From Paludibacteraceae bacterium (GTDB taxonomy: Bacteria; Bacteroidota; Bacteroidia; Bacteroidales; Paludibacteraceae): DNA of 37,077 nucleotides. Shown one piece after another: positions 2,145 through 14,085 of the stretch. Each line of letters opens with the position of its first letter. Within the stretch, counting starts at the first letter, position 1. The translations under genes were made by a program, and so were the position numbers. Where the stretch lies: assembly GCA_017962085.1 (NCBI GenBank), contig JAGCWA010000026.1:1-37077 (forward strand), read 5' to 3'. The notes below the pieces were generated by a model that saw only the letters and a program-made list of their open reading frames with translations, had not been told where the DNA came from and made no database searches.

Positions 2145-3536
2145 TCAACCGATCTTCTGCACGCAAAGCGCATCGTTCAGAGCGCAGATGGCAGCGGAAT
2201 AGTCCTCACGCTTCAGCACGAACTGCATGTTCACCTGGCGCAAAGACTGAGCAAAGCACTCAATGTTGATGTTATTGTCGCACAACGCCTTGGCAGCCCT
2301 GTAGAGGAAGCCCGGGTGAGCGATGTTCGTACCCATGCAGCAAACCAAGGAAACCTCCTTGACCGTCACCTGATAGAAGAGACGTTGCAACTCGTCCACC
2401 AAAGGCATGGAGCTAGGCTTGTCCCAAATCACCATCGTGATGCTGTTAGCGTTCGTCGATTTCAGGATATAGCTGACATGATGTTTCTCGAACACCTGCA
2501 TGATACGAAGGTCGAAACCAACCTCACCCACCATCATAGGATCATGGATCTCAACAGCGAGCACCTTATCCGTACCTGAGACGATCTCGATACGAGACTG
2601 CTGCGCCACATAATCCTTGGAAATCAGCGTACCCGGGTGTTCTGGCTCGAAAGTATTTTTGATACGGATATTAATGCCAGCCAACTCCAACGGTTTGGAA
2701 GCCTTCGGATGGATCGCCTCCATGCCGACGTCCGCCAATTGGTCCGCCACCATGAAGTTCGTATGACCGACAGGGATAGACTTGTCCTTACCAACCAGCT
2801 TAGGATCAGCCGAAGACAAGTGGAATTCCTTATGGATAACCGCCTCGTCCGCCTTCACCTCGACAGCGATCTTCGAGAAAGTCACCTCAGAGTAGCCACG
2901 GTCGAAGGCACGCATGATACCCTCCACACCCTTCGTGTAGCCTGTAGCCACGCAAAGCGTCTTAGAGAAATCGACACCGATAAAAGCCTTATGGATACGC
3001 TCATCGATGGTAAGCGCCTCCGAATCATCGAAACCGCAGAGGTCGATGAAGGTAGCGTCGATGCCATGATTACGAATGATATTGACCGAGTTGAAGGCAG
3101 AATGCGCCTCACCGATGGAAGAGAGGATCTCACGGGCGGCGAGGAACAAATCACGTTTGTTGACATATCCGGAAGCCACCACGCTATGCATAGCGGCGAG
3201 GTAAGACTTAGCCTTAGCGATTCTATTGATGATGAATTCGTCAGCCACCTTCTGGTCCAGTTTAATCTCCTCGTACTTACGGTTCAGAGCGATCAGCTTG
3301 CCGCAAAGTTCGTCGAGAGCCTCATTGTAGTTCTCGTCACGAAGGAATTTCACATAAATACCAGGTTCGCCCGTCTTCTTGTGCTCCAACAACCAATTCG
3401 TCACATTGTTATACGCGGAGACAACAAAGATACGATTATAAAACTCCGCGCCGGAACGCTTTCCAATGATGATGTTGTTCAAGACGTCCTTGAACTCGGA
3501 CATAGACGTTCCGCCAATTTTTTCTACCGTCAACAT
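2145..3536 (-). CDS. Aspartate kinase, ectoine-type (AskEct-like) lineage
   Basis: Aspartokinase phosphorylates L-aspartate to aspartyl-4-phosphate, the first step towards lysine, threonine, methionine and diaminopimelate. The 463-residue protein opens with VEKIGGTSMS, the amino-acid-kinase nucleotide loop. It continues with RIFVVSAYNNVTNWLLEHKK, which resembles the aspartokinases of ectoine clusters more than LysC, ThrA or MetL. The kinase domain spans roughly residues 1-310. Two ACT domains follow (about 325-385 and 395-460), suggesting amino-acid feedback control. No ectABC genes lie nearby, so a general role in the aspartate pathway is likelier than ectoine synthesis. A good Bacteroides-type promoter lies just upstream at 3561-3594. 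The assignment to the AskEct lineage is from memory of the motif, not an alignment. Confidence 0.85.
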   Translation of the reverse strand: MLTVEKIGGTSMSEFKDVLNNIIIGKRSGAEFYNRIFVVSAYNNVTNWLLEHKKTGEPGIYVKFLRDENYNEALDELCGKLIALNRKYEEIKLDQKVADEFIINRIAKAKSYLAAMHSVVASGYVNKRDLFLAAREILSSIGEAHSAFNSVNIIRNHGIDATFIDLCGFDDSEALTIDERIHKAFIGVDFSKTLCVATGYTKGVEGIMRAFDRGYSEVTFSKIAVEVKADEAVIHKEFHLSSADPKLVGKDKSIPVGHTNFMVADQLADVGMEAIHPKASKPLELAGINIRIKNTFEPEHPGTLISKDYVAQQSRIEIVSGTDKVLAVEIHDPMMVGEVGFDLRIMQVFEKHHVSYILKSTNANSITMVIWDKPSSMPLVDELQRLFYQVTVKEVSLVCCMGTNIAHPGFLYRAAKALCDNNINIECFAQSLRQVNMQFVLKREDYSAAICALNDALCVQKIG

Positions 3537-3725: not shown

Positions 3726-3845
3726 CGCAAAACTTTCAATTTGTCACAAAACAGACATTCAAACACGCAAAAGGGCAAAAAACGAGGTCCATTTTCGCAC
3801 ATTCAAGCGAAAAGACTTTCAAATTGTCAAAAAACCATAAAAAAA
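3726..3845. repeat. Two imperfect direct repeats upstream of the nuo leader promoter
   Basis: ACTTTCAATTTGTCA (3732-3746) and ACTTTCAAATTGTCA (3825-3839) match at 14 of 15 positions, 93 bp apart. Similarity extends to both sides (GCGCAAAA/GCGAAAAG before, CACAAAAC/AAAAAACC after). The second copy ends about 20 bp before the -33 box at 3859, the right place for an activator or repressor site. The rest of 3595-3858 is A-rich; I see no convincing gene in it. Confidence 0.45.
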
Positions 3846-3858
3846 ACGTGGGGAATTA

Positions 3859-3890
3859 TTTGTCCAAATCAAATAACTTTTCCAATTTTG
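3859..3890 (+). promoter_or_regulatory. Predicted promoter of the nuo leader / small RNA
   Basis: TTTG (3859-3862), then exactly 20 nt, then CAATTTTG (3883-3890). This matches the Bacteroides primary-sigma pattern TTTG-N19-21-TAnnTTTG with one mismatch. Transcription should begin near 3897, just ahead of the structured element. No equally good promoter lies between the terminator at 4019-4051 and nuoA. Confidence 0.65.
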
Positions 3891-3934
3891 CGTACGTAAA
3901 ATTACGATTATACATAACAAGAAAATTCAGTGTG

Positions 3935-4042
3935 ATGAAAGCACAAGTAATCCTAAGGAAATGCTTGAAAAGCAAATCATTGGAAGCAATGGTTTGTGGA
4001 AGGTCACACTACCATGCGAAACTATACCCCCAAAAGGTATAG
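3935..4042 (+). CDS. Possible 35-residue leader peptide or small protein
   Basis: An ATG at 3935 opens a 35-codon frame (MKAQVILRKC...HAKLYPQKV) that is basic, has two cysteines and ends in a TAG inside the terminator hairpin. The promoter 45 nt upstream and the terminator at its end would suit a tiny gene or a leader peptide. Against this, there is no clear ribosome site, the ATG lies in the predicted closing stem, and the codons are not noticeably gene-like. I rate a non-coding leader as more likely. The same frame is open back to 3638, but that part has no support as coding sequence. Confidence 0.25.
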   Translation: MKAQVILRKCLKSKSLEAMVCGRSHYHAKLYPQKV

Positions 4043-4051
4043 TTTTTTTTT
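4019..4051 (+). terminator. Strong intrinsic terminator 36 nt before nuoA
   Basis: AAACTATACC (4019-4028) pairs with GGTATAGTTT (4036-4045) around a 7-nt loop, with an uninterrupted T-run to 4051. By stem quality and T-run it is among the best terminators in the window. Its position just ahead of a ten-gene operon with no obvious promoter of its own raises the question of regulated read-through. Confidence 0.85.
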
Positions 4052-4087
4052 GTCATAGAATATCAATAACAAAAACAGTTTATAACA

Positions 4088-4441
4088 ATGAGTTCAGGTG
4101 AAATTTTTATCGTCGTATTGGTGACGGCCATCATCATGGTGGTAGCCGCGCTGATCATAGGCAAGCTTTTAGCGCCTAAGTCGACCAATGCGCAAAAAGG
4201 AGAGCCGTACGAATGTGGTATCCCGACGAGAGGCACGTCGTGGATGCAGTTCAAGGTGGGCTACTACCTATTCGCCATCCTGTTCTTGATGTTCGACGTG
4301 GAGACAGTGTTGCTGTTCCCTTGGGCGACCATCATGAAATCATTGGGGACGATGGGACTAGTCAGTGTGGCGTTCTTCCTTCTCGTTCTTGTTCTCGGAT
4401 TAGCCTACGCATGGAAGAAAGGAGCATTGGAATGGAAGTAA
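4088..4441 (+). CDS. nuoA: NADH-quinone oxidoreductase subunit A
   Basis: NuoA is a small three-helix subunit of the complex I membrane arm, next to the quinone site. The 117-residue protein has its helices at about 5-29, 59-79 and 86-108. It shows the family signature [20 protein letters not shown] in the loop (Cys at the quinone-site loop) and [11 protein letters not shown] in helix 2. It is the first gene of a ten-gene operon that ends with nuoN. Its last codons overlap the start of nuoB by 10 nt. The start ATG lies 36 nt after a strong terminator. Confidence 0.97.
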
Positions 4442-5049
4442 AGAACATCAAAATAAAAAACATGAAGACGGAGGACTTCAACGACAACGAATACTTAGAG
4501 CAGTATGTTGAAGAACTCCGCGCGGGTGGTGTGAATGTGGTGGTCGGCGTATTGGACGACATCATCAATTGGGGACGGTCCAACTCCGTATGGCCGTTGA
4601 CCTTCGCCACCAGCTGTTGCGGTATCGAGTTCATGTGCGTCGGTGCCGCCCGTACCGACTTCGCCCGTTTCGGGTGGGAGGTTACGCGTAACTCACCACG
4701 TCAGGCCGACGTCATCTTCGTGGCAGGAACGATCGTGCACAAGATGGCTCCCGTGCTCAAGCGTCTATACGACCAGATGGCTGAGCCTAAGTACGTCATC
4801 GCTGTCGGCGGTTGCGCCATCAGCGGCGGACCTTTCAAGGACACCTACCATGTCGTAAACGGAGTGAACGAGATCATCCCTGTGGACGTATACGTGCCGG
4901 GATGCCCGCCAAGACCAGACGCCATGCTCTACGGCATGATGCAACTACAAAGGAAAATCAAGTTGGAGAACTTCTTCAAGCTGCCTAACAAGGGCAATGC
5001 GGAGAAGAAATCCGACGAATCAGAAAACAATACAGCAGAAAACGAGTAG
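4432..5049 (+). CDS. nuoB: NADH-quinone oxidoreductase subunit B
   Basis: NuoB carries iron-sulfur cluster N2, which passes electrons to quinone. The 205-residue protein has the tandem Cys62-Cys63 (SCCGIEF), Cys128 (GGCAISGG) and Cys158 (PGCPPRP), the four expected ligands. I chose the ATG at 4432, which overlaps the end of nuoA. The frame is open further back, but that part is the shadow of nuoA. The C-terminal tail of about 25 residues is charged and low-complexity ([10 protein letters not shown]), longer than the core fold needs. nuoCD follows after 3 nt. Confidence 0.97.
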
Positions 5050-5052
5050 GAT

Positions 5053-6681
5053 ATGAAAAAGATAAAAGACATAGTTTTGTCAGTAGACTCCAGTCTCACT
5101 ATCGAAGAGCAACAATACCCTACCATCTGCGTTTCCCCTAACCAATTGAGGAAATTGGCGGAGAAATTGAAAGAGAATGGGTTCGATGTCCTGTTGAACC
5201 TGACAGGAATGGACTACAAGGAGTATTTCGGAGTGATTTACCACTTCACCTCCACCCAAGACAAGAAGGCGATGGTCGTCGTAAAGGTGAATACGCCGGA
5301 CAGGGAGAACCTCGCCATTCCGACGGTGAGCGACCTTTGGGCATCCGCCAACCTCTACGAGCGTGAGGCATACGACTTCTTCGGACTGCAATTCGTCAAC
5401 CACCCAGACCTGCGCCGCCTCTTCTTGCGGGCAGACTGGAACGGCTTCCCTTTCAGGAAAGACTACGATGCGGATCCTAAGTTGAACCCAGTTCCGCTTG
5501 TCAACCAAACAGCGGATGCGATGGAAGACCTTCCATCCATCCGATTCGACAAGGAGGGCAAACTCATTACTGAACACAAAGCGCTATTCGACAAGAACGA
5601 ATACGTGGTGAACATAGGACCTCAACACCCAGCCACCCACGGTGTGCTTCACCTGAGGGTATCGCTGGACGGTGAGATCATCAAGAAGGTGGACCCGAAC
5701 TTCGGCTACATCCACCGAGGCATCGAGAAGATGTGCGAGAGCAAGACCTACCCACAGATCCTCCAGTTGACGGAACGTCTCGACTATCTGTCAGGAACGA
5801 TGAACCGCCACGCCTTCTGCCTCTGCGTAGAAAAAGCCCTTGGCATCGAGGTGCCGAAAAGGGCGCAGGTGGTCCGCGTCATCTTCGACGAGTTGACCCG
5901 TATCGCCTCCCACTTGTTGGGATGGGGATGTATGTGCATGGATATGGGTTCCATCACCGCCTTCATCTACGGAATGCGCGACCGTGAAAAGATCATGGAC
6001 ATCTTCGAAGAGACCGGCGGCGGCCGCCTCATGGTGGGCTACAACGTCATCGGAGGATTGGCCAACGAGGTGAGTCCTAAGTTCGTGGACCAAGTCAAGG
6101 AGTTCATCCCTTACATGCGTAAGATGATCAAAGAGTACCATATCCTCTTCACCAACAACCCGATCGCGAAGGGTCGTATGGAGAACATCGGATTCCTCAC
6201 CAAGGAGACCGCCGCTTCATTGGGCGTGACGGGACCTACGGGTAGAGCCTCCGGATGGTCATGCGACGTGCGTAAGATCGAGCCATATGCGGTGTACGAC
6301 CAAGTGGACTTCCAAGAGATGCTCCGCCAAGACGGTGGCACATTCGACCGATACCTCATCCGTTTGGACGAGATCGAGCAATCCCTCCGCATCATCGAGC
6401 AACTCATCGACAATCTGCCGGACGGAGAGTTCAAGGCCAAGACCCCGGCTATCATCAAGTTGCCTGAGGGAGAGTACTACCAGCGGGTGGAGAACGCGAG
6501 GGGAGACTTCGGCGTCTACATCAACAGCAAGGGAGACAAGAACCCTTACCGCGTGAAGTTCCGCTCACCATGCATGACGCTCATCTCCGCATTGGATCCA
6601 CTCTGCAGAAACGAGAAGATCGCCGACCTCATCATGATCGGAGCTTCCTTGGACTACGTAATCCCATGTGCGGACAGATAA
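5053..6681 (+). CDS. nuoCD: Fused NADH-quinone oxidoreductase subunits C/D
   Basis: This single 542-residue protein joins NuoC (30-kDa, about 1-150) and NuoD (49-kDa, about 180-542). The NuoC half carries YEREAYDFFGLQF near residue 102 and HPDLRRLFL. The NuoD half starts at NIGPQHPATHGVLH (188-200), the quinone-pocket loop, followed by YIHRGIEKMCESKTY. The end, DLIMIGASLDYVIPCADR, keeps the family's Asp-Arg C-terminus. The C-D fusion is common in Bacteroidota and enterobacteria. With NuoB and NuoI it forms the hydrophilic connecting module; no NuoE, NuoF or NuoG accompanies it here. Confidence 0.96.
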   Translation: MKKIKDIVLSVDSSLTIEEQQYPTICVSPNQLRKLAEKLKENGFDVLLNLTGMDYKEYFGVIYHFTSTQDKKAMVVVKVNTPDRENLAIPTVSDLWASANLYEREAYDFFGLQFVNHPDLRRLFLRADWNGFPFRKDYDADPKLNPVPLVNQTADAMEDLPSIRFDKEGKLITEHKALFDKNEYVVNIGPQHPATHGVLHLRVSLDGEIIKKVDPNFGYIHRGIEKMCESKTYPQILQLTERLDYLSGTMNRHAFCLCVEKALGIEVPKRAQVVRVIFDELTRIASHLLGWGCMCMDMGSITAFIYGMRDREKIMDIFEETGGGRLMVGYNVIGGLANEVSPKFVDQVKEFIPYMRKMIKEYHILFTNNPIAKGRMENIGFLTKETAASLGVTGPTGRASGWSCDVRKIEPYAVYDQVDFQEMLRQDGGTFDRYLIRLDEIEQSLRIIEQLIDNLPDGEFKAKTPAIIKLPEGEYYQRVENARGDFGVYINSKGDKNPYRVKFRSPCMTLISALDPLCRNEKIADLIMIGASLDYVIPCADR

Positions 6682-6714
6682 TTCTTTTCACAGACAAAAT
6701 AAAGAATAAAGGAT

Positions 6715-7806
6715 ATGTTAACATTTAGTGAAATAATAAGTACAATACACGAGGGACTCACGGACGCCCTACCCGGATGGCTGGCGACGACAATCGAATA
6801 CGTCATCATAGGCGCCGCCCTGTTGGGTCTCTATTGTGTGCTTGCATTGATCCTCATCCTTTTGGAGAGAAAGATATGCGCCCGGTTCCAATGCCGAATC
6901 GGCCCTAACCGAGTAGGTCCTTGGGGATTGCTGCAGAGTGTGGCCGACATGGTCAAGATCCTTTTGAAGGAGATCATTTCGATCAAGAACACGGACAACA
7001 TCCTATTCAAGACAGCGTTGTTCCTCGCCATCGCAGGTTCGTTCTGCACATTCGGCGCATTACAGTTCGGCGACGGATTAGCCTGCATCGACTTCAACGT
7101 CGGAGTCTTCTACATCCTGGCGATCTCCTCGCTAGGCGTAGTCGGCATCCTCTTGGCGGGATGGTCCAGCAACAACAAGTACACCTTGATCGGTGCGATG
7201 CGAAGCGGTGCCCAACTCATCAGCTACGAGTTGTCGGCAGGCCTCTCCCTCATGACGATGGTCATCCTCGCAGGATCACTGAGCATCTCAGACATCATCG
7301 CCGGGCAAGGCGGTATGAACGCGGAAGGCGGATACAACACCTGGTACATCTTCCAGGCGCCAACCGCCATCATCGCCTTCATCATCTATTTGATCGCAGG
7401 ACATGCGGAGACCAACCGTGGCCCATTCGACCTTCCGGAGGCCGAGTCTGAGTTGACGGCCGGATACCACACGGAGTACTCCGGTATCCAGTTCGGATTC
7501 TTCTACTTGGCGGAATACCTGAACATGTTCATCATCGCGGGTATCGCGGCGACCGTCTTCCTCGGAGGATGGCAACCATTGCAGATCAATGCGGGATGGG
7601 CTTCCGGGTTCAACGAACTTATGGGACAGATTCCATCCTGGATCTGGTTCATGGGCAAGACCTTCGCCCTCGTGCTTCTCAGCTTATGGGTGAGATGGAC
7701 ATTCCCAAGGCTTAGGATCGACCAACTGCTCAAGCTGGAGTGGAAGATCCTCATGCCGATCAGTATATTGAACCTGCTCATCATGGCAGTGTGGGTTATA
7801 ATTTAA
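6715..7806 (+). CDS. nuoH: NADH-quinone oxidoreductase subunit H
   Basis: NuoH is the membrane subunit that forms most of the quinone chamber and links redox chemistry to the proton pumps. It has 363 residues and about eight to nine helices. Visible signatures are [20 protein letters not shown] near the first matrix loop and [20 protein letters not shown] followed by [10 protein letters not shown], the acidic quinone-site loop. The start ATG lies 33 nt after nuoCD, and nuoI follows 18 nt after its stop. Confidence 0.97.
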
Positions 7807-7824
7807 ATCTAAAGGGAAGAAAAG

Positions 7825-8307
7825 ATGATACAGTATATCAAAGATCTATTTTCCGGGATATGGAACCTGTTACAGGGTATGCGCATCACGATGATCAACT
7901 TCATCAGGAAGCCAATCACGGAACAATACCCGGAGAACCGTGGGGTGAAGGAATACGCTGAACGGTTCAGGGGAGAGCTGACGATGCCGCACAACGCGAA
8001 CAACGAGCACAAGTGCACAGCGTGCGGAATCTGCCAGATGAACTGCCCGAACGGGACCATCAAGATAGTGACGAAACAAATCACCACAGAGGACGGCAAG
8101 ACCAAGAAAGCATTGGACAAGTACCTGTATGACTTGGGAAGCTGCACCTTCTGCGGGCTCTGCACGATGGGTTGTCCTCAAAAGGCAATCGTTTGGAGCA
8201 ACAACTTCGAACACTCGGTATTCAGAAGAGAGACGTTAGTTAAGCAACTGAACAAAGAGGGTTCCAAGACAGAGGAGAAGAAACCAGTAACAACCCCACA
8301 ACAATAA
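7825..8307 (+). CDS. nuoI: NADH-quinone oxidoreductase subunit I (2x[4Fe-4S])
   Basis: NuoI holds clusters N6a and N6b, which carry electrons to N2. The 160-residue protein has two ferredoxin motifs: Cys64, 67, 70 and 74 (CTACGICQMNCP) and Cys107, 110, 113 and 117 (CTFCGLCTMGCP). An amphipathic N-terminal stretch should lie on the membrane. In a complex without NuoEFG, this subunit is the exposed electron entry point and the most likely docking face for ferredoxin or another donor; that is inference from the gene set. nuoJ begins 5 nt after its stop. Confidence 0.97.
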   Translation: MIQYIKDLFSGIWNLLQGMRITMINFIRKPITEQYPENRGVKEYAERFRGELTMPHNANNEHKCTACGICQMNCPNGTIKIVTKQITTEDGKTKKALDKYLYDLGSCTFCGLCTMGCPQKAIVWSNNFEHSVFRRETLVKQLNKEGSKTEEKKPVTTPQQ

Positions 8308-8312
8308 CGACC

Positions 8313-8852
8313 ATGGAATTATTAACAGCAAGCAACATCATATTTTTCATACTTGCGGCGGCCATATTGCTCTTCGGCATCCTGACGGTCACATCGACCA
8401 AGATCCTCAGGGCGGCCACCTACTTGTTCTTCACGTTGTTCTGCATAGCGGGTCTCTACCTCCAGCTCAACTACGAGTTTCTGGCGGCGGTACAACTCTC
8501 CGTGTATGCGGGAGGCATCGTGATACTCATCGTCTTCGCCATCCTGTTGATCAAGGGACTGGGAGAAGACAAGGAGATTAACATCGGACAAAGGCGCATC
8601 ATGGGACTCGTGGCGGCCATCGTCGGTTCGATCACTTGCGCATGCGTCATCGCCAAGTACGGATTCTTGCCAGACTACGACACGGCGGCTGAGCTGACCC
8701 AGGCGGTGGACATGCAGATGATCGGACAGACATTGATGGGCACGAAGCAGTACGAATATCTGTTACCATTCGAGGCGGTGAGCGTTCTCTTGCTCGCATG
8801 CATCATCGGAAGTATCGCAATAGCAACAAAGGATAAGGAGGTCAACAAATGA
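8313..8852 (+). CDS. nuoJ: NADH-quinone oxidoreductase subunit J
   Basis: NuoJ is a membrane subunit with five helices; helix 3 has the conserved pi-bulge linked to proton-channel opening. The 179-residue protein shows the matching segment AVQLSVYAGGIVILIVFAILL at about residues 59-79. The C-terminus (ATKDKEVNK) overlaps the start of nuoK by 4 nt (ATGA), pointing to translational coupling. Confidence 0.95.
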   Translation: MELLTASNIIFFILAAAILLFGILTVTSTKILRAATYLFFTLFCIAGLYLQLNYEFLAAVQLSVYAGGIVILIVFAILLIKGLGEDKEINIGQRRIMGLVAAIVGSITCACVIAKYGFLPDYDTAAELTQAVDMQMIGQTLMGTKQYEYLLPFEAVSVLLLACIIGSIAIATKDKEVNK

Positions 8853-9160
8853 ATATACCAGTAGAATCATATTTTATTTTAAGCACGCTCCTATTCTTCA
8901 TAGGCGTGTATGGATTCGTGGCACGCAAGAACCTCATCAGCATACTGATGTCGGTCGAGCTCATCCTCAACGCCGCAAACATCAACTTCGTAGTGGCGAA
9001 CAGATTCCTCTTCCCAGAACTTCTGGAGGGACACATCTATAGTCTCTTCGTCATCGCGATAGCGGCGGCGGAAACAGCGGTAGCCATCTCAATCATCATC
9101 AATGTCTATCGCCAGAAGAAGAACATCGACGCCAAGAGTATTAACGAATTAAAGTATTAA
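8849..9160 (+). CDS. nuoK: NADH-quinone oxidoreductase subunit K
   Basis: NuoK has three helices and two buried glutamates of the proton path. The 103-residue protein shows them in SVELILNAANINFV (Glu in helix 2) and AAAETAVAISIIINVYR (Glu in helix 3). The start overlaps nuoJ by 4 nt, and nuoL begins 4 nt after its stop. Confidence 0.96.
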   Translation: MNIPVESYFILSTLLFFIGVYGFVARKNLISILMSVELILNAANINFVVANRFLFPELLEGHIYSLFVIAIAAAETAVAISIIINVYRQKKNIDAKSINELKY

Positions 9161-9164
9161 TGAT

Positions 9165-11123
9165 ATGGAACAGTTAGCGAGTTTAGCACCTTATGTTTTA
9201 ATATTACCGCTCTGCATGTTCCTTATCTTGGGACTATTCGGTAAAAAAATGTGTCCGAAAGTGTCAGGTCTCTTGGGTACGACCGTCTTTGGCGTCGTCT
9301 CCGTGATCTGCTACTACATCGCACTCAAATATTTCTTCAGTGGCGATTATCAAATCGGGGAGACTTACCAACAGGTGACCCTCTTCAACATGGAGTGGTT
9401 GCGGATGAACGAAGACCTGGTGATCAGCATCGGCTTCCTCTTGGATCCGCTCTCCGCCATCATGCTGATTGTCATCTCGACCGTATCCCTGATGGTCCAC
9501 ATCTACAGCATGGGTTACATGCACGGAGAAGGAGGATTCCAGCGTTTCTACGCCATCCTTTCGCTCTTCTCCTTCGCCATGCTCGGATTGGTTGTGGCGA
9601 CCAACATCTTCCAGATGTACATCTTCTGGGAGTTGGTGGGCGTATCCTCCTTCCTGTTGATCAGTTTCTACTACTTCAAGCATTCCGCAGTGCGCGCGGC
9701 GAAGAAAGCCTTCATCGTCACGAGGTTCGCGGATATGTTCTTCCTCATCGGAATCCTGATCCTCTCCTACTACACGAGGACATTCGACTTCGATAAGCTC
9801 ACCTTCATCACCGACGGCCATGTGGACGCGATCGTCAACTCAGACTTGAGGACGATGACCTTCCTCGGGTTCCCAGTGATTTCGATAGCCATGTTCCTCA
9901 TCTTCTTGGGAGGTGCGGGTAAATCGGCCATGTTCCCGTTGCACATTTGGTTGCCGGACGCCATGGAAGGTCCAACCCCTGCTTCAGCGTTGATCCATGC
10001 GGCCACGATGGTCGTAGCGGGTGTATACTTGGTGGCAAGGCTCTTCCCTATCTACACGTTCGAGGCACCGCACGTATTGGAGATCATCTCCTACATCGGA
10101 GCATTCACCAGTATCTTCGCGGCGATCATCGCCTGCGCGCAGACCGATATCAAGCGAGTGCTCGCCTTCTCCACGATCTCACAGATCGCCTACATGATGG
10201 TAGCCTTGGGTGTTTCCGGCTACGGAGGAGTCAACGGACTCGGTTACACGGCCTCCATGTGGCACCTCTTCACACACGCCATGTTCAAGGCATTGCTCTT
10301 CATGGCGGCAGGAGCCATCATCCACGCCGTACACAGCAACGAGATGGATGCGATGGGCAACCTCAGAAAGAAATTGCCTATCACCCACATCACGTTCCTC
10401 ATCGCCTGCTTGGCGATAGCCGGTATACCTCCATTCTCAGGCTTCTTCTCGAAGGACGAGATCTTGGTGGCAGCGTTCGAGACCAACAAATGGGTCTTCG
10501 CTGTAGAGTACTTCGTGGCAGGTTTGACCGCCTTCTACATGTTCCGTCTCTACTACCGCATCTTCTGGTTCGGCGAGCCTGAGGGCGGATACGAGCACGA
10601 GCCGCATGAGGCACCATTGAACATGACCTTCCCGCTCATGTTCTTAGCCGCGGTGACGGTCATCACCGGTATCAGCTGGGCATTCGGCAAACTCTCATTC
10701 ACGGAACTGATTTCGAGCGACTTCACCGGTTACGAGATTCACACCCATTGGAACATCGCCCTGCCAAGCATCGGCGCAGGCGTGGTAGGTATACTCATCG
10801 CGACCTTCCTCTACCTGGAAAGGACAGGAAGACCGAACAAGGCGGTATCCTACATCAAGAAGCCTTACCTTTGGGCGTATAACAAATTCTATATCGATGA
10901 GATATATCTCTTTGTGACGAACAATATCATCTTCCAACGGATATGCCAACCTATCGCATGGTTCGACCGTCATATCATCGACGGATTCATGAACCTGCTC
11001 TCATGGGTCACGAACAAGACCTCGCAAGAGACGAAGGAGATCCAGAGCGGATATGTGCAACAGTACGCTTGGGTGTTCATCATGGGTGTTATCACTATCG
11101 TGTTACTATCCATTAATCTCTAA
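9165..11123 (+). CDS. nuoL: NADH-quinone oxidoreductase subunit L
   Basis: NuoL is the distal antiporter-like proton pump with the long lateral helix. It has 652 residues. The key charged residues are in place: the helix-5 Glu in MYIFWELVGVSSFLLI, the helix-7 Lys in GGAGKSAMFPLHIWLPDAM, and the helix-8 HAATMVVAGVYLVARLFP stretch. The C-terminal region (about 560-652) holds the lateral helix and anchor. It sits in the usual order L-M-N at the end of the operon. Confidence 0.97.
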   Translation: MEQLASLAPYVLILPLCMFLILGLFGKKMCPKVSGLLGTTVFGVVSVICYYIALKYFFSGDYQIGETYQQVTLFNMEWLRMNEDLVISIGFLLDPLSAIMLIVISTVSLMVHIYSMGYMHGEGGFQRFYAILSLFSFAMLGLVVATNIFQMYIFWELVGVSSFLLISFYYFKHSAVRAAKKAFIVTRFADMFFLIGILILSYYTRTFDFDKLTFITDGHVDAIVNSDLRTMTFLGFPVISIAMFLIFLGGAGKSAMFPLHIWLPDAMEGPTPASALIHAATMVVAGVYLVARLFPIYTFEAPHVLEIISYIGAFTSIFAAIIACAQTDIKRVLAFSTISQIAYMMVALGVSGYGGVNGLGYTASMWHLFTHAMFKALLFMAAGAIIHAVHSNEMDAMGNLRKKLPITHITFLIACLAIAGIPPFSGFFSKDEILVAAFETNKWVFAVEYFVAGLTAFYMFRLYYRIFWFGEPEGGYEHEPHEAPLNMTFPLMFLAAVTVITGISWAFGKLSFTELISSDFTGYEIHTHWNIALPSIGAGVVGILIATFLYLERTGRPNKAVSYIKKPYLWAYNKFYIDEIYLFVTNNIIFQRICQPIAWFDRHIIDGFMNLLSWVTNKTSQETKEIQSGYVQQYAWVFIMGVITIVLLSINL

Positions 11124-11141
11124 CCGATAAAAAGTACTACA

Positions 11142-12668
11142 ATGAATATATTATCATTATTTGTAATCATCCCGCTCGTCATGATGGCAGTGATATTCTG
11201 CATCAACGGCGAGAAAAAGAGTCTGATACGGACGATCATGTCCATCGGAGGATTCGCATTGCTCTGCACCTCCACCTATCTGACGATTCAATTCCTGGAG
11301 TTACGGCAAATCGACACCACCTCGGAGTTCCTTTTCACGGAATCCGCCATGTGGTATGAGCGATTCAACATCCACTACTCTGTCGGTGTGGACGGAATAT
11401 CCGTAGCCATGTTACTGCTCTCCTCCATCGTGGTGATCACCGGCGTGTTCGTATCCTACGCCATGGAAGAGAAAGTGAAGGAGTACTTCCTCTGGTTCCT
11501 GATGTTGAGCATCGGAGTGTACGGGTTCTTCATTTCGTTGGACCTCTTCACGATGTTCCTCTTCTACGAGGTGGCATTGATTCCAATGTACCTGCTCATC
11601 GGATTGTGGGGAAGCGGCAAGAAAGAATATTCAGCCATGAAGTTGACGCTGATGTTGATGGGAGGTTCAGCCTTCCTGATGGTCGGCATCTTCGGCATCT
11701 ACTACAACTCCATCCCTGAGGGCGGCGAAGGCACCTTCAACATCCAAGAGATCGCAGCGAACGTGCAAGCCTTGAAGGCGAACGGAGGTGACATCAGCTG
11801 GGAATACATCTTCTTCCCGCTCACCTTCGTGGGATTCGGCGTGTTGGGAGCCATGTTCCCATTCCACACATGGTCGCCTGACGGTCACGCATCCGCGCCG
11901 ACAGCCGTTTCAATGCTCCACGCGGGTGTGTTGATGAAGTTGGGAGGATACGGATGTTTCCGAATCGCCATGTATCTGATGCCAGATGCGGCGCAGGAGC
12001 AAGCATGGATCTTCATCATCCTGACCGGTATCAGCGTCGTGTACGGAGCCTTCAGCGCCTGCGTGCAGAACGACTTGAAGTACATCAACGCCTACTCATC
12101 CGTGAGCCACTGCGGCTTGGTTCTCTTCGCCCTTTTGATGATGAACAAGACCGCCATGACGGGAGCCATCCTACAGATGGTATCACACGGACTCATGACA
12201 GCACTCTTCTTCGCCCTGATCGGTATGATTTACGGAAGGACACACACGCGTGACATCCGTGAGATGGGAGGTCTGATGAAGATCATGCCAATCCTCTGCG
12301 TATGCTACGTGATCGCGGGACTCGCCTCTCTCGGTCTGCCGGGACTCAGCGGATTCGTTGCGGAGATGACCATCTTCGTCGGAGCGTTCGAGCACACGGA
12401 CTTCTTCCATAGGACATTCGTCATCCTCGGTTGCAGCTCCATCGTGATCACAGCAGTCTACATCCTGAGAGTGGTCGGCAAGATCCTCATGGGACCAGTG
12501 CAGGACAAGCACCACGAGACGCTCACCGACGCAGTGTGGTATGAGAAAGTAGCAGCGTTCGGACTCATCGCCGCAATCGCCGCAATAGGTATGGCACCGC
12601 TCTGGTTGTCGAACATGATCGGCGGCGGAATTGAAAACATCGCAAAATTATTCACTTATGGACTATAG
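11142..12668 (+). CDS. nuoM: NADH-quinone oxidoreductase subunit M
   Basis: NuoM is the middle antiporter-like proton pump. The 508-residue protein has the helix-5 Glu143 (FYEVALIPMYLLIG), the helix-8 Lys266 (GVLMKLGGYG) and the helix-12 Glu (GFVAEMTIF). By eye, the helix-7 lysine of E. coli NuoM (Lys234, in VKMP before PLHGW) aligns with Leu235 here (GFGVLGAMFPFHTW). Loss of that lysine is notable because it is part of the pump's charge chain; it may be a group-wide feature of Bacteroidota NuoM. The stop overlaps the start of nuoN by 11 nt. Confidence 0.96.
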   Translation: MNILSLFVIIPLVMMAVIFCINGEKKSLIRTIMSIGGFALLCTSTYLTIQFLELRQIDTTSEFLFTESAMWYERFNIHYSVGVDGISVAMLLLSSIVVITGVFVSYAMEEKVKEYFLWFLMLSIGVYGFFISLDLFTMFLFYEVALIPMYLLIGLWGSGKKEYSAMKLTLMLMGGSAFLMVGIFGIYYNSIPEGGEGTFNIQEIAANVQALKANGGDISWEYIFFPLTFVGFGVLGAMFPFHTWSPDGHASAPTAVSMLHAGVLMKLGGYGCFRIAMYLMPDAAQEQAWIFIILTGISVVYGAFSACVQNDLKYINAYSSVSHCGLVLFALLMMNKTAMTGAILQMVSHGLMTALFFALIGMIYGRTHTRDIREMGGLMKIMPILCVCYVIAGLASLGLPGLSGFVAEMTIFVGAFEHTDFFHRTFVILGCSSIVITAVYILRVVGKILMGPVQDKHHETLTDAVWYEKVAAFGLIAAIAAIGMAPLWLSNMIGGGIENIAKLFTYGL

Positions 12669-14085
12669 TAATTTCTTATCGATGAACCACGAAATATCAT
12701 TAGTAGTGGTTATGATATTGGTTCTGTTGACCGATTTAGTCATCGGCGACAAGAACAAAAAGGCAAGCCAGATCATGGCAATTGGGCTATTCATCGCCCA
12801 CACCGTCTTGTGTTTCCAATGGTCTAACAGCTACAGTCCGACCGAAGCATTCTCCGGGATGTACCTCACATCAGAGATCCACATGTTCGTCAAGAATATG
12901 CTGAACATAGGCACCGTGCTCGTCTTCTTGTACGCATACTACTGGAACACGCACGAGAACGAGAGCCACGCCGGGGAGTTCTACTTCCTGACCCTCTCCA
13001 CCCTATTGGGTATGTACTTGATGATCTCGTCGGGTAACTTCCTCCTCTTCTACATCGGATTGGAGACCGCCTCCATCCCAATGGCCACATTGGTGGCGAT
13101 GAACAAGAAGAGGGAAGAGTCGGCCGAAGCGGCAGCCAAGTATGTGCTCACCGCAGCCTTCTCGTCTGGTGTGATGATCTTCGGTATCTCCCTGATCTAC
13201 GCAACCTGCGGCACGCTCTACTTCGACGGAATCTCAGCCAACTTCTCCGATTTCAACCTCTCCATCATGGGATTGGTCTTCTTCATCGCGGGTATCGGCT
13301 TCAAGATCTCCCTCGTTCCGTTCCACTTGTGGACAGCGGACACTTACCAAGGCGCGCCTACTTCAGTGACCGCCTACCTCTCCGTCATCTCCAAGGGAGC
13401 CGCAGCCTTCGCCTTCATGTGCATCTTGATGAAGGCATTCAGCAACTACCCGGACGTATGGAAGGAGATCATGTGGTGGATCATCGTTGTCACCATCACC
13501 GTGGGTAACCTATTCGCCATCAGGCAGAAGAACCTGAAGAGATTCCTCGCCTTCTCCTCCATCTCACAAGCCGGCTACATCATGCTCGGTGTGATCGCAG
13601 GAAGCGAGCAAGGTATGGCATCCCTCGTGTTCTACACGTTGATCTACATGTTCACCAACCTCGCCGCCTTCGGAATCATCTCCAGCATCGAGGACCAGAC
13701 CGGCAAGGTATCGATGGACGACTACGACGGACTCTACGACACCAACCCGAAACTGGCAGTGGTCATGATGCTCGCCATGTTCTCGTTGGGAGGTATCCCT
13801 CCGTTCGCCGGATTCTTCAGCAAGTTCTTCATCTTCATGGCGGCCGCCGAGCAGGGACAGTACTTACTGGTATTCCTCGCCTTGTTGAACACCATCATCT
13901 CACTCTACTACTATTTGCTGGTAGTGAAAGCCATGTTCATCAAGAAGTCGGACAATCCGATCCCGACCATCAAGATCGACAACATGGCCAAGGTCGGACT
14001 CATCATCTGTACGATCTGCATCTTGGCATTAGGATTCATCAGCCCACTCTACACATTCATCTCAGAGAGGAGCTTCGGATTCTAA
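12658..14085 (+). CDS. nuoN: NADH-quinone oxidoreductase subunit N
   Basis: NuoN is the proximal antiporter-like proton pump. The frame is open from 12631, but the ATG at 12658 gives a normal start (MDYSNFLSMNHEIS) and a short overlap with nuoM, so I prefer it; the product has 475 residues. The helix-5 Glu (FYIGLETASIPMATLVA), helix-7 Lys (GIGFKISLVPFHLWTAD) and helix-8 Lys (LSVISKGAAAF) are all present. It closes the operon; a terminator follows at 14135-14173. Confidence 0.95.
   Translation: MDYSNFLSMNHEISLVVVMILVLLTDLVIGDKNKKASQIMAIGLFIAHTVLCFQWSNSYSPTEAFSGMYLTSEIHMFVKNMLNIGTVLVFLYAYYWNTHENESHAGEFYFLTLSTLLGMYLMISSGNFLLFYIGLETASIPMATLVAMNKKREESAEAAAKYVLTAAFSSGVMIFGISLIYATCGTLYFDGISANFSDFNLSIMGLVFFIAGIGFKISLVPFHLWTADTYQGAPTSVTAYLSVISKGAAAFAFMCILMKAFSNYPDVWKEIMWWIIVVTITVGNLFAIRQKNLKRFLAFSSISQAGYIMLGVIAGSEQGMASLVFYTLIYMFTNLAAFGIISSIEDQTGKVSMDDYDGLYDTNPKLAVVMMLAMFSLGGIPPFAGFFSKFFIFMAAAEQGQYLLVFLALLNTIISLYYYLLVVKAMFIKKSDNPIPTIKIDNMAKVGLIICTICILALGFISPLYTFISERSFGF

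Follow-up and report, generated by a model that had tools for sequence, protein, structure and literature searches.

The window, by which we mean the whole 37,077-nucleotide stretch of DNA analyzed here, carries a complex I operon on its plus strand. The first gene of this operon is nuoA (4088-4441), followed by nuoB (4432-5049), nuoCD (5053-6681) and the remaining genes (6715-14085), within which nuoH (6715-7806) and nuoL (9165-11123) were recognized by sequence matches, and nuoI, nuoJ, nuoK, nuoM and nuoN were assigned from position and size only. Judged by position and size, no ORF remains within 4088-14085 for nuoE, nuoF or nuoG. An aspartate kinase gene lies upstream on the minus strand (2145-3536), and 551 bases separate it from nuoA. 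A yak-omasum MAG contig, also from Paludibacteraceae, encodes a NuoA identical to that of the window.

Ahead of the operon, a Bacteroidetes-type promoter occupies 3859-3890 of the plus strand, with a -33 TTTG at 3859-3862, a TTTG at 3887-3890 and the -7 box CCAATTTTG; from its position, the transcript would start at about 3892-3897. Boxes resembling this promoter occur in the lineages of genus g1 and at L145 (the prefixes g, L and G mark the genera, loci and genomes compared). Two copies of a motif, CTTTCAAWTTGTCA, stand farther upstream on the same strand, at 3733-3746 and, as a second exact copy, at 3816-3829, the latter 29 nt before the -33 box. With up to two mismatches allowed, the window contains five matches to the motif, compared to 0.76 expected. 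The copy nearer the promoter recurs in 13 of the 14 g1 nuo upstream regions, with one further change in L117, and no match to it was found in any genus besides g1 among the 160 upstream sets scanned. These copies could possibly be an activator site.

Downstream of the promoter, the predicted RNA folds into a helix-closed structure that is followed by an intrinsic terminator. The closing helix, P1, pairs 3929-3936 with 4003-4010 and consists of a 7-bp stem (3929-3935/4004-4010) and an additional U-G pair (3936/4003). An inner hairpin with a GAAG loop spans 3972-3997, combining 10 bp (3973-3996) with an eleventh, G-U pair (3972/3997). The terminator (4018-4051, plus strand) has an 11-bp stem (4018-4028/4036-4046), a 7-nt loop and a run of nine T (4043-4051), and the nuoA ATG at 4088 follows 36 nt beyond. 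The initial annotation of this DNA had proposed the promoter, both helices and the terminator with its 36-nt distance to nuoA, and each was found where that annotation had placed it. Its further claim that no promoter intervenes between terminator and nuoA was also borne out: the spacer has no Bacteroidetes-type promoter pattern, and a scan of the whole window matched only at 3859 and 26935.

The segment 3890-4060 has a predicted folding energy of -42.6 kcal/mol, compared to -28.6 +/- 3.6 kcal/mol for its shuffles (n = 200; z = -3.95), none of which reached as low a value. A mechanical terminator scan over 2.2 kb, which found two terminators where 2.7 are expected, is not significant alone, and the argument therefore rests on the comparison with relatives. 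No Rfam family matched the window at gathering score, nor the region 3840-4100 at E-values up to 10.

A short open reading frame fills the leader

Absent from the initial annotation is a leader ORF of 35 codons, MKAQVILRKCLKSKSLEAMVCGRSHYHAKLYPQKV, at 3935-4042 of the plus strand. It begins within the closing stem, the 5′ strand of P1 overlapping its start codon, and its TAG stop codon (4040-4042) lies within the 3′ arm of the terminator, such that the ORF fills the structured region. An AUG ORF of 26-56 codons likewise precedes the pre-nuoA hairpin in all 32 nuoA-bearing genomes available for five Paludibacteraceae genera: 14 of the 16 genomes of g1 (the other two giving no nuoA match), four of g4, six of g5, one of g6 and seven of g20.

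For a statistical comparison with shuffled sequence, the transcript start was taken from a promoter box chosen by eye and the stem from base pairing (by eye for L139). All 20 representatives, which are not independent and form about 14 groups, contain an AUG ORF of 25 codons or more whose end falls within -45 to +10 nt of the stem, where dinucleotide shuffles lead one to expect 3.07. In 16 of these 20 the ORF opens at the first AUG of the transcript, against 1.10 expected; the four in which it does not all belong to g20, where the placement of the start is least safe.

The frame itself appears to be guarded. Eight pairs of relatives have no in-frame stop between them, compared to 6.9 when the same substitutions are randomly dealt, a result that 0 of 300 trials reached; frame +2 is open too in 12 of 30 leader ORFs. 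Amino acid composition over 20 leaders also sets the frame apart from the two off-frames, with Met counted 36 times versus 7 and 11, Lys 82 times versus 45 and 52, and Trp not once versus 17 and 10. At the amino-acid level purifying selection is weak, with a pooled dN/dS of 0.62 as compared to off-frame ratios of 0.87 and 0.71 (p = 0.053 by permutation); the pair L114/L117 alone gives 2.05. That frame, length and charge are kept, and the sequence far less so, is a better fit to a cis-acting leader than to a protein with a role of its own. We infer that the ORF is translated, and with its presence the likely mechanism shifts to a translation-coupled one.

Distribution of the layout

The hairpin ahead of nuoA carries a T-run of at least five in 29 of the 32 genomes, all except L137, L139 and L145. 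The initial annotation had suggested that the nuo genes are read through the terminator, and the retention of the layout in all 32 nuoA-bearing genomes of the five genera supports such read-through. From the terminator stem to nuoA, most genomes have 37-61 nt, L119 having 112 nt and L145 having 103 nt; in L119 and L120 (G120 and G143), the stretch between stem and nuoA can fold as a long hairpin.

Upstream regions were sampled from other genera as well. Outside the five genera, 105 distinct nuoA upstreams over 400 nt were surveyed, and 31 of them have a hairpin-T site. A promoter-like box lies between this hairpin and nuoA in 24 of the 31 and is absent in seven, among which only L061 and L064 appear leader-like by eye. 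Among the other five, also classified by eye, the hairpin of L033 and L067 overlaps the promoter or lies just beyond it, that of L021 and L150 is inside an upstream frame, and in L037 it sits within a run of short repeats. Both L061 and L064 come from distant Bacteroidales MAGs and combine a promoter box with a hairpin bearing a T-run, with no box between hairpin and nuoA. The former has a 48-codon, GTG-started frame (-324 to -177 before nuoA) that ends inside the hairpin; in the latter a GTG-started frame runs through the hairpin as far as nuoA.

A tree of NuoA and NuoB from 85 loci places the leader-bearing rows in one clade (98/90), far from L061 and L064. This tree includes 16 of the 19 chosen leader rows, L113, L119 and L128 having been filtered out, and leaves out the g5 loci L142-L145, which were too short, as well as eight duplicate loci. 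Taken together, the clade in the tree and the survey outside it point to one family, in a clade of Paludibacteraceae, and possibly to a separate origin of the layout in L061 and L064.

The wider sample yielded two further observations. A frame with the conserved end YY(V/I)FAL..I.V precedes nuoA in Butyricimonas and other Bacteroidales (L021, L034, L037, L070, L149 and L150), ending 98-137 nt before the gene. Also, L069, L073 and L044, labelled Prevotella or Flavobacteriaceae, have NuoAB that groups with Dysgonomonadaceae-type sequences, and these are either mislabelled bins or instances of transfer.

A conserved fold with rapid sequence turnover

Twenty-three leaders were folded, from the transcript start to the base of the terminator only, and all 23 proved more stable than their own shuffles (z from -0.48 to -4.50). 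In 18 of the 23, pairing between the AUG region and the final stretch of the ORF was matched by no more than 9% of shuffles, and in 15 of the 23 by no more than 5%; pairing of start and end beyond that of shuffles is absent in the other five (L119, L127, L142, L144 and L145). Whether the start codon is part of the helix or lies next to it varies between lineages, and in eight of the 23 leaders the AUG is paired no more than in shuffles. The seven closest sequences, from g1, all form the closing helix, with G-U wobble changes only and no two-sided, compensatory change. The initial annotation had made its reading depend on conservation of the stems in relatives, and conserved they are, as the closing helix in the seven closest sequences and as start-end pairing in 18 of 23 leaders.

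That annotation had also suggested a covariance-model search upstream of nuoA. The model R1, built from the seven closest sequences and run over 358 family genomes, gave strong matches only in the seven genomes from which it was made and in two that are near-identical to them, with a single match per genome, each time before nuoA. The best further match, in G187 (E = 3.7e-4), looks like a match to the terminator only. The search result thus speaks for a single copy and rapid sequence turnover, not for conservation. Between lineages, the layout and the fold topology are conserved and the primary sequence is not, having diverged beyond alignment.

These patterns bear on the idea that a microprotein gene, or a trans-acting sRNA, stands before nuo by chance, with nuo itself fed by leaky termination or an unrecognized promoter. 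Such a unit would have its own promoter and terminator, a stable fold and a single genomic copy, as is found here. However, the peptides diverge almost past alignment when nuoA is kept at ~69-100% identity to that of the window, and therefore no protein function and no sRNA target site is visibly conserved. The R1 search of the 358 family genomes detected neither conserved sequence nor copies away from nuoA that would be signs of a trans-acting sRNA; the element always lies in cis to nuoA, and the spacer in the window has no promoter motif. We regard a chance neighbor of this kind as unlikely. The initial annotation had offered a separate small RNA of about 155 nt as its alternative, and of this proposal a by-product RNA may survive, whereas a trans-acting one finds no support in conserved sequence or in additional copies.

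Classical attenuators in the same genome

This genome also has his, leu and trp leaders that are, by their sequences, classical attenuators, and they provide a natural comparison. The trpE leader peptide, MANKVNMNIANSLYWWRPTLFQSRR, contains WW and has a terminator behind it (L198, ~7525-7377, minus strand); no Rfam family matched this leader at gathering score, Trp_leader reaching 26.8 of 41 bits. The hisG leader peptide, MFNTKFHHNHHHYQR (L214), devotes five of its 15 codons to His, with the run HHNHHH, and the leuA leader peptide, MTNYILNIINISIIILLRSLRK (L215), belongs to an Ile/Leu attenuator. The L214 and L215 attenuators are located ~170-40 nt before hisG and leuA. For thrA, no leader was found within 420 nt before the match.

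These leaders share with nuo the succession of promoter, short ORF, terminator and operon, and they differ from it in what connects the ORF to the terminator. Their stop codons lie well ahead of the stem (by 32 nt in trp, 29 nt in his and 26 nt in leu), whereas the stop-to-stem gap in the nuo leaders is -40 to +9 nt in 19 of 19 tested (L139 left out). Antiterminator complementarity, scored as duplexes against shuffles, is evident in his (z = -3.8) and leu (z = -3.7) and was missed in trp, such that the test finds two of three positive controls. The same test, with its miss of trp, detected an antiterminator in none of 19 nuo leaders at 0.05, the lowest value being 0.075 in L145; truncated-transcript folding did not find one in nuo either. 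Nor do the nuo leader peptides contain a regulatory codon run.

A wider scan of this genome took in the window and ~303 kb from elsewhere (9% of the assembly), and reduced 85 hairpin-T sites to 13 rows with a sORF before and a gene behind. Only nuo has the full promoter pattern, and trpE has a good -7 box. A weak box-like string was seen in three rows: L182 at 4246 on the plus strand, where an upstream coding frame ends; L199 at 4768 on the minus strand, a 12-codon ORF; and the window at 2049 on the minus strand. These three and nine boxless rows were judged by eye to be upstream gene ends or chance.

Might nuo, too, have an amino-acid attenuator of the trp/his type, in which stalling at codons of a scarce tRNA favors an antiterminator? 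The genome uses such devices, leader peptide and terminator are both present, and the obvious amino acid to suspect would be Cys (or Met), the former because a Cys codon is present in most leaders: 29 of 30 leader ORFs have at least one, and 20 leaders together contain 42 in-frame, compared to 19.6 expected from base composition. However, Cys is nearly as frequent in the two off-frames (39 and 32), and thus the excess is not frame-specific, for which reason Cys sensing was rejected; L127 has no Cys at all. The missing codon run, the lack of a detectable antiterminator in all 19 leaders tested and the stop codon that abuts the terminator further argue against this scheme, which we consider quite improbable.

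A proposed translation-coupled attenuator ahead of complex I

Two E. coli attenuators offer closer precedents. In that of ampC, ribosome loading between promoter and terminator sets the level of read-through, resulting in growth-rate control; its leader contains a start-stop element, as opposed to the 26-56 codon ORF of nuo. That of pyrBI features a U-rich, UTP-sensitive polymerase pause before the terminator, whereas the window has no T-run of at least five between the leader AUG and the terminator. The nuo ORF further differs from pyrBI in being closed by a start-end helix, and its operon specifies complex I and not pyrimidine synthesis. What the two have in common is a leader ORF (pyrL in pyrBI) that reaches the terminator and, as proposed here for nuo, a close ribosome that blocks the hairpin directly with no antiterminator (general background, together with sections of PMC4824070).

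As the same paper describes for E. coli, the trailing ribosome represses almost completely a terminator placed a few bp past a stop codon, and termination efficiency is near its maximum once the distance exceeds ~30 bp; terminators may still function when they lie less than 100 bp into a coding region, and in amino-acid attenuators stop codon and terminator are more than 20 bp apart, which avoids such repression (PMC4824070). Since the geometry of the nuo leaders is opposite to that of amino-acid attenuators, and their AUG-to-stem distance of 79-135 nt (without L139) is near the 100-bp mark, direct blocking by the ribosome is the most likely mode of action.

We thus favor, with moderate confidence, a reading of the nuo leader as a translation-coupled transcription attenuator of pyrBI- or ampC-like geometry, in which the ribosome finishing the leader would block the terminator. 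This reading draws on the layout, the conservation of the ORF, the abutment of stop codon and terminator, the fold topology, the occurrence in one clade and the contrast with the his, leu and trp leaders. RNA polymerase would start near 3895 and transcribe a leader ORF (26-56 codons across the family) that ends against or inside the terminator. A prompt ribosome would follow the polymerase to the stop codon and clash with the terminator by covering its 5′ arm, the hairpin would not form, and the polymerase would continue into the nuo genes, for which read-through would presumably be the sole route of expression. If instead ~80-135 nt are transcribed before any ribosome arrives, the ORF would fold with its end onto its start as the closing helix and the terminator would then form, leaving only a leader RNA of ~155 nt. 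Transcription of nuo would in this way be proportional to translation of the leader, and the start-end helix could serve as a lock against late initiation. Candidate signals are general translation capacity, or a leader slowed by one particular tRNA, drug or metabolite. We know of no ribosome-polymerase coupling described in Bacteroidota; the his, leu and trp leaders imply that it exists there.

Two other readings were considered. It is very unlikely that the hairpin provides constitutive 5′ insulation, whether by stabilizing the mRNA or as a weak terminator that is not regulated: regulation of nuo is itself a prediction from sequence, which would accommodate this view, but the T-runs persist at 29 of 32 hairpins and the placement of the stop codon is kept despite sequence turnover. 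A riboswitch that senses a respiratory small molecule is hardly credible, because the multibranch, helix-closed fold followed by a terminator matches no Rfam family and has no aptamer sequence conserved between lineages, and the ORF stays open across the would-be aptamer. The initial annotation had spoken of a riboswitch or attenuator; the second half of that proposal is the one that the layout of all 32 genomes upholds.

Relation to known leaders and implications

To our knowledge, most described cases of leader-peptide attenuation concern genes for biosynthesis, resistance or Mg2+. A search of the literature outside subscription journals found no paper on a nuo leader peptide or attenuator. 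Within Bacteroidota, leader-peptide-like ORFs are noted, in sections of the respective reports, for the long 5′ UTRs of Bacteroides thetaiotaomicron (PMC7366714) and of Flavobacterium psychrophilum, the named cases there being at amino-acid operons (PMC9723704); the term "nuo" is absent from the main text of both. The two papers in that search with both "nuo operon" and "leader peptide" apply these terms to separate matters, the topics being long nuo transcripts or an antisense RNA in nuo, and thrL with comparable leaders (PMC11481537; PMC10349824).

A leader-ORF attenuator before complex I, conserved mainly in one clade and probably acting by the mechanism that its geometry suggests, invites a bolder and still tentative idea. 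In this clade of gut Bacteroidales, the leader might constitute a translation checkpoint, at which complex I would be licensed if a ribosome caught the polymerase within about the first hundred nt, with the start-end helix as a one-shot timing lock. If so, the supply of complex I would follow from translational capacity, energy or a specific tRNA, and not from a regulator that responds to electron acceptors. Sensing of Cys tRNA, in view of the Fe-S subunits, would be one version of such a checkpoint, and the leaders of L061 and L064 would have arrived at the same logic separately.

Some 20 diverged leaders that share one geometry, together with three classical attenuators in the same genome, make up a natural series in which ribosome-polymerase coupling in Bacteroidota can be studied. 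For the organisms themselves, anaerobic bacteria of the gut, a conserved attenuator before complex I would couple the capacity for respiration to translation.
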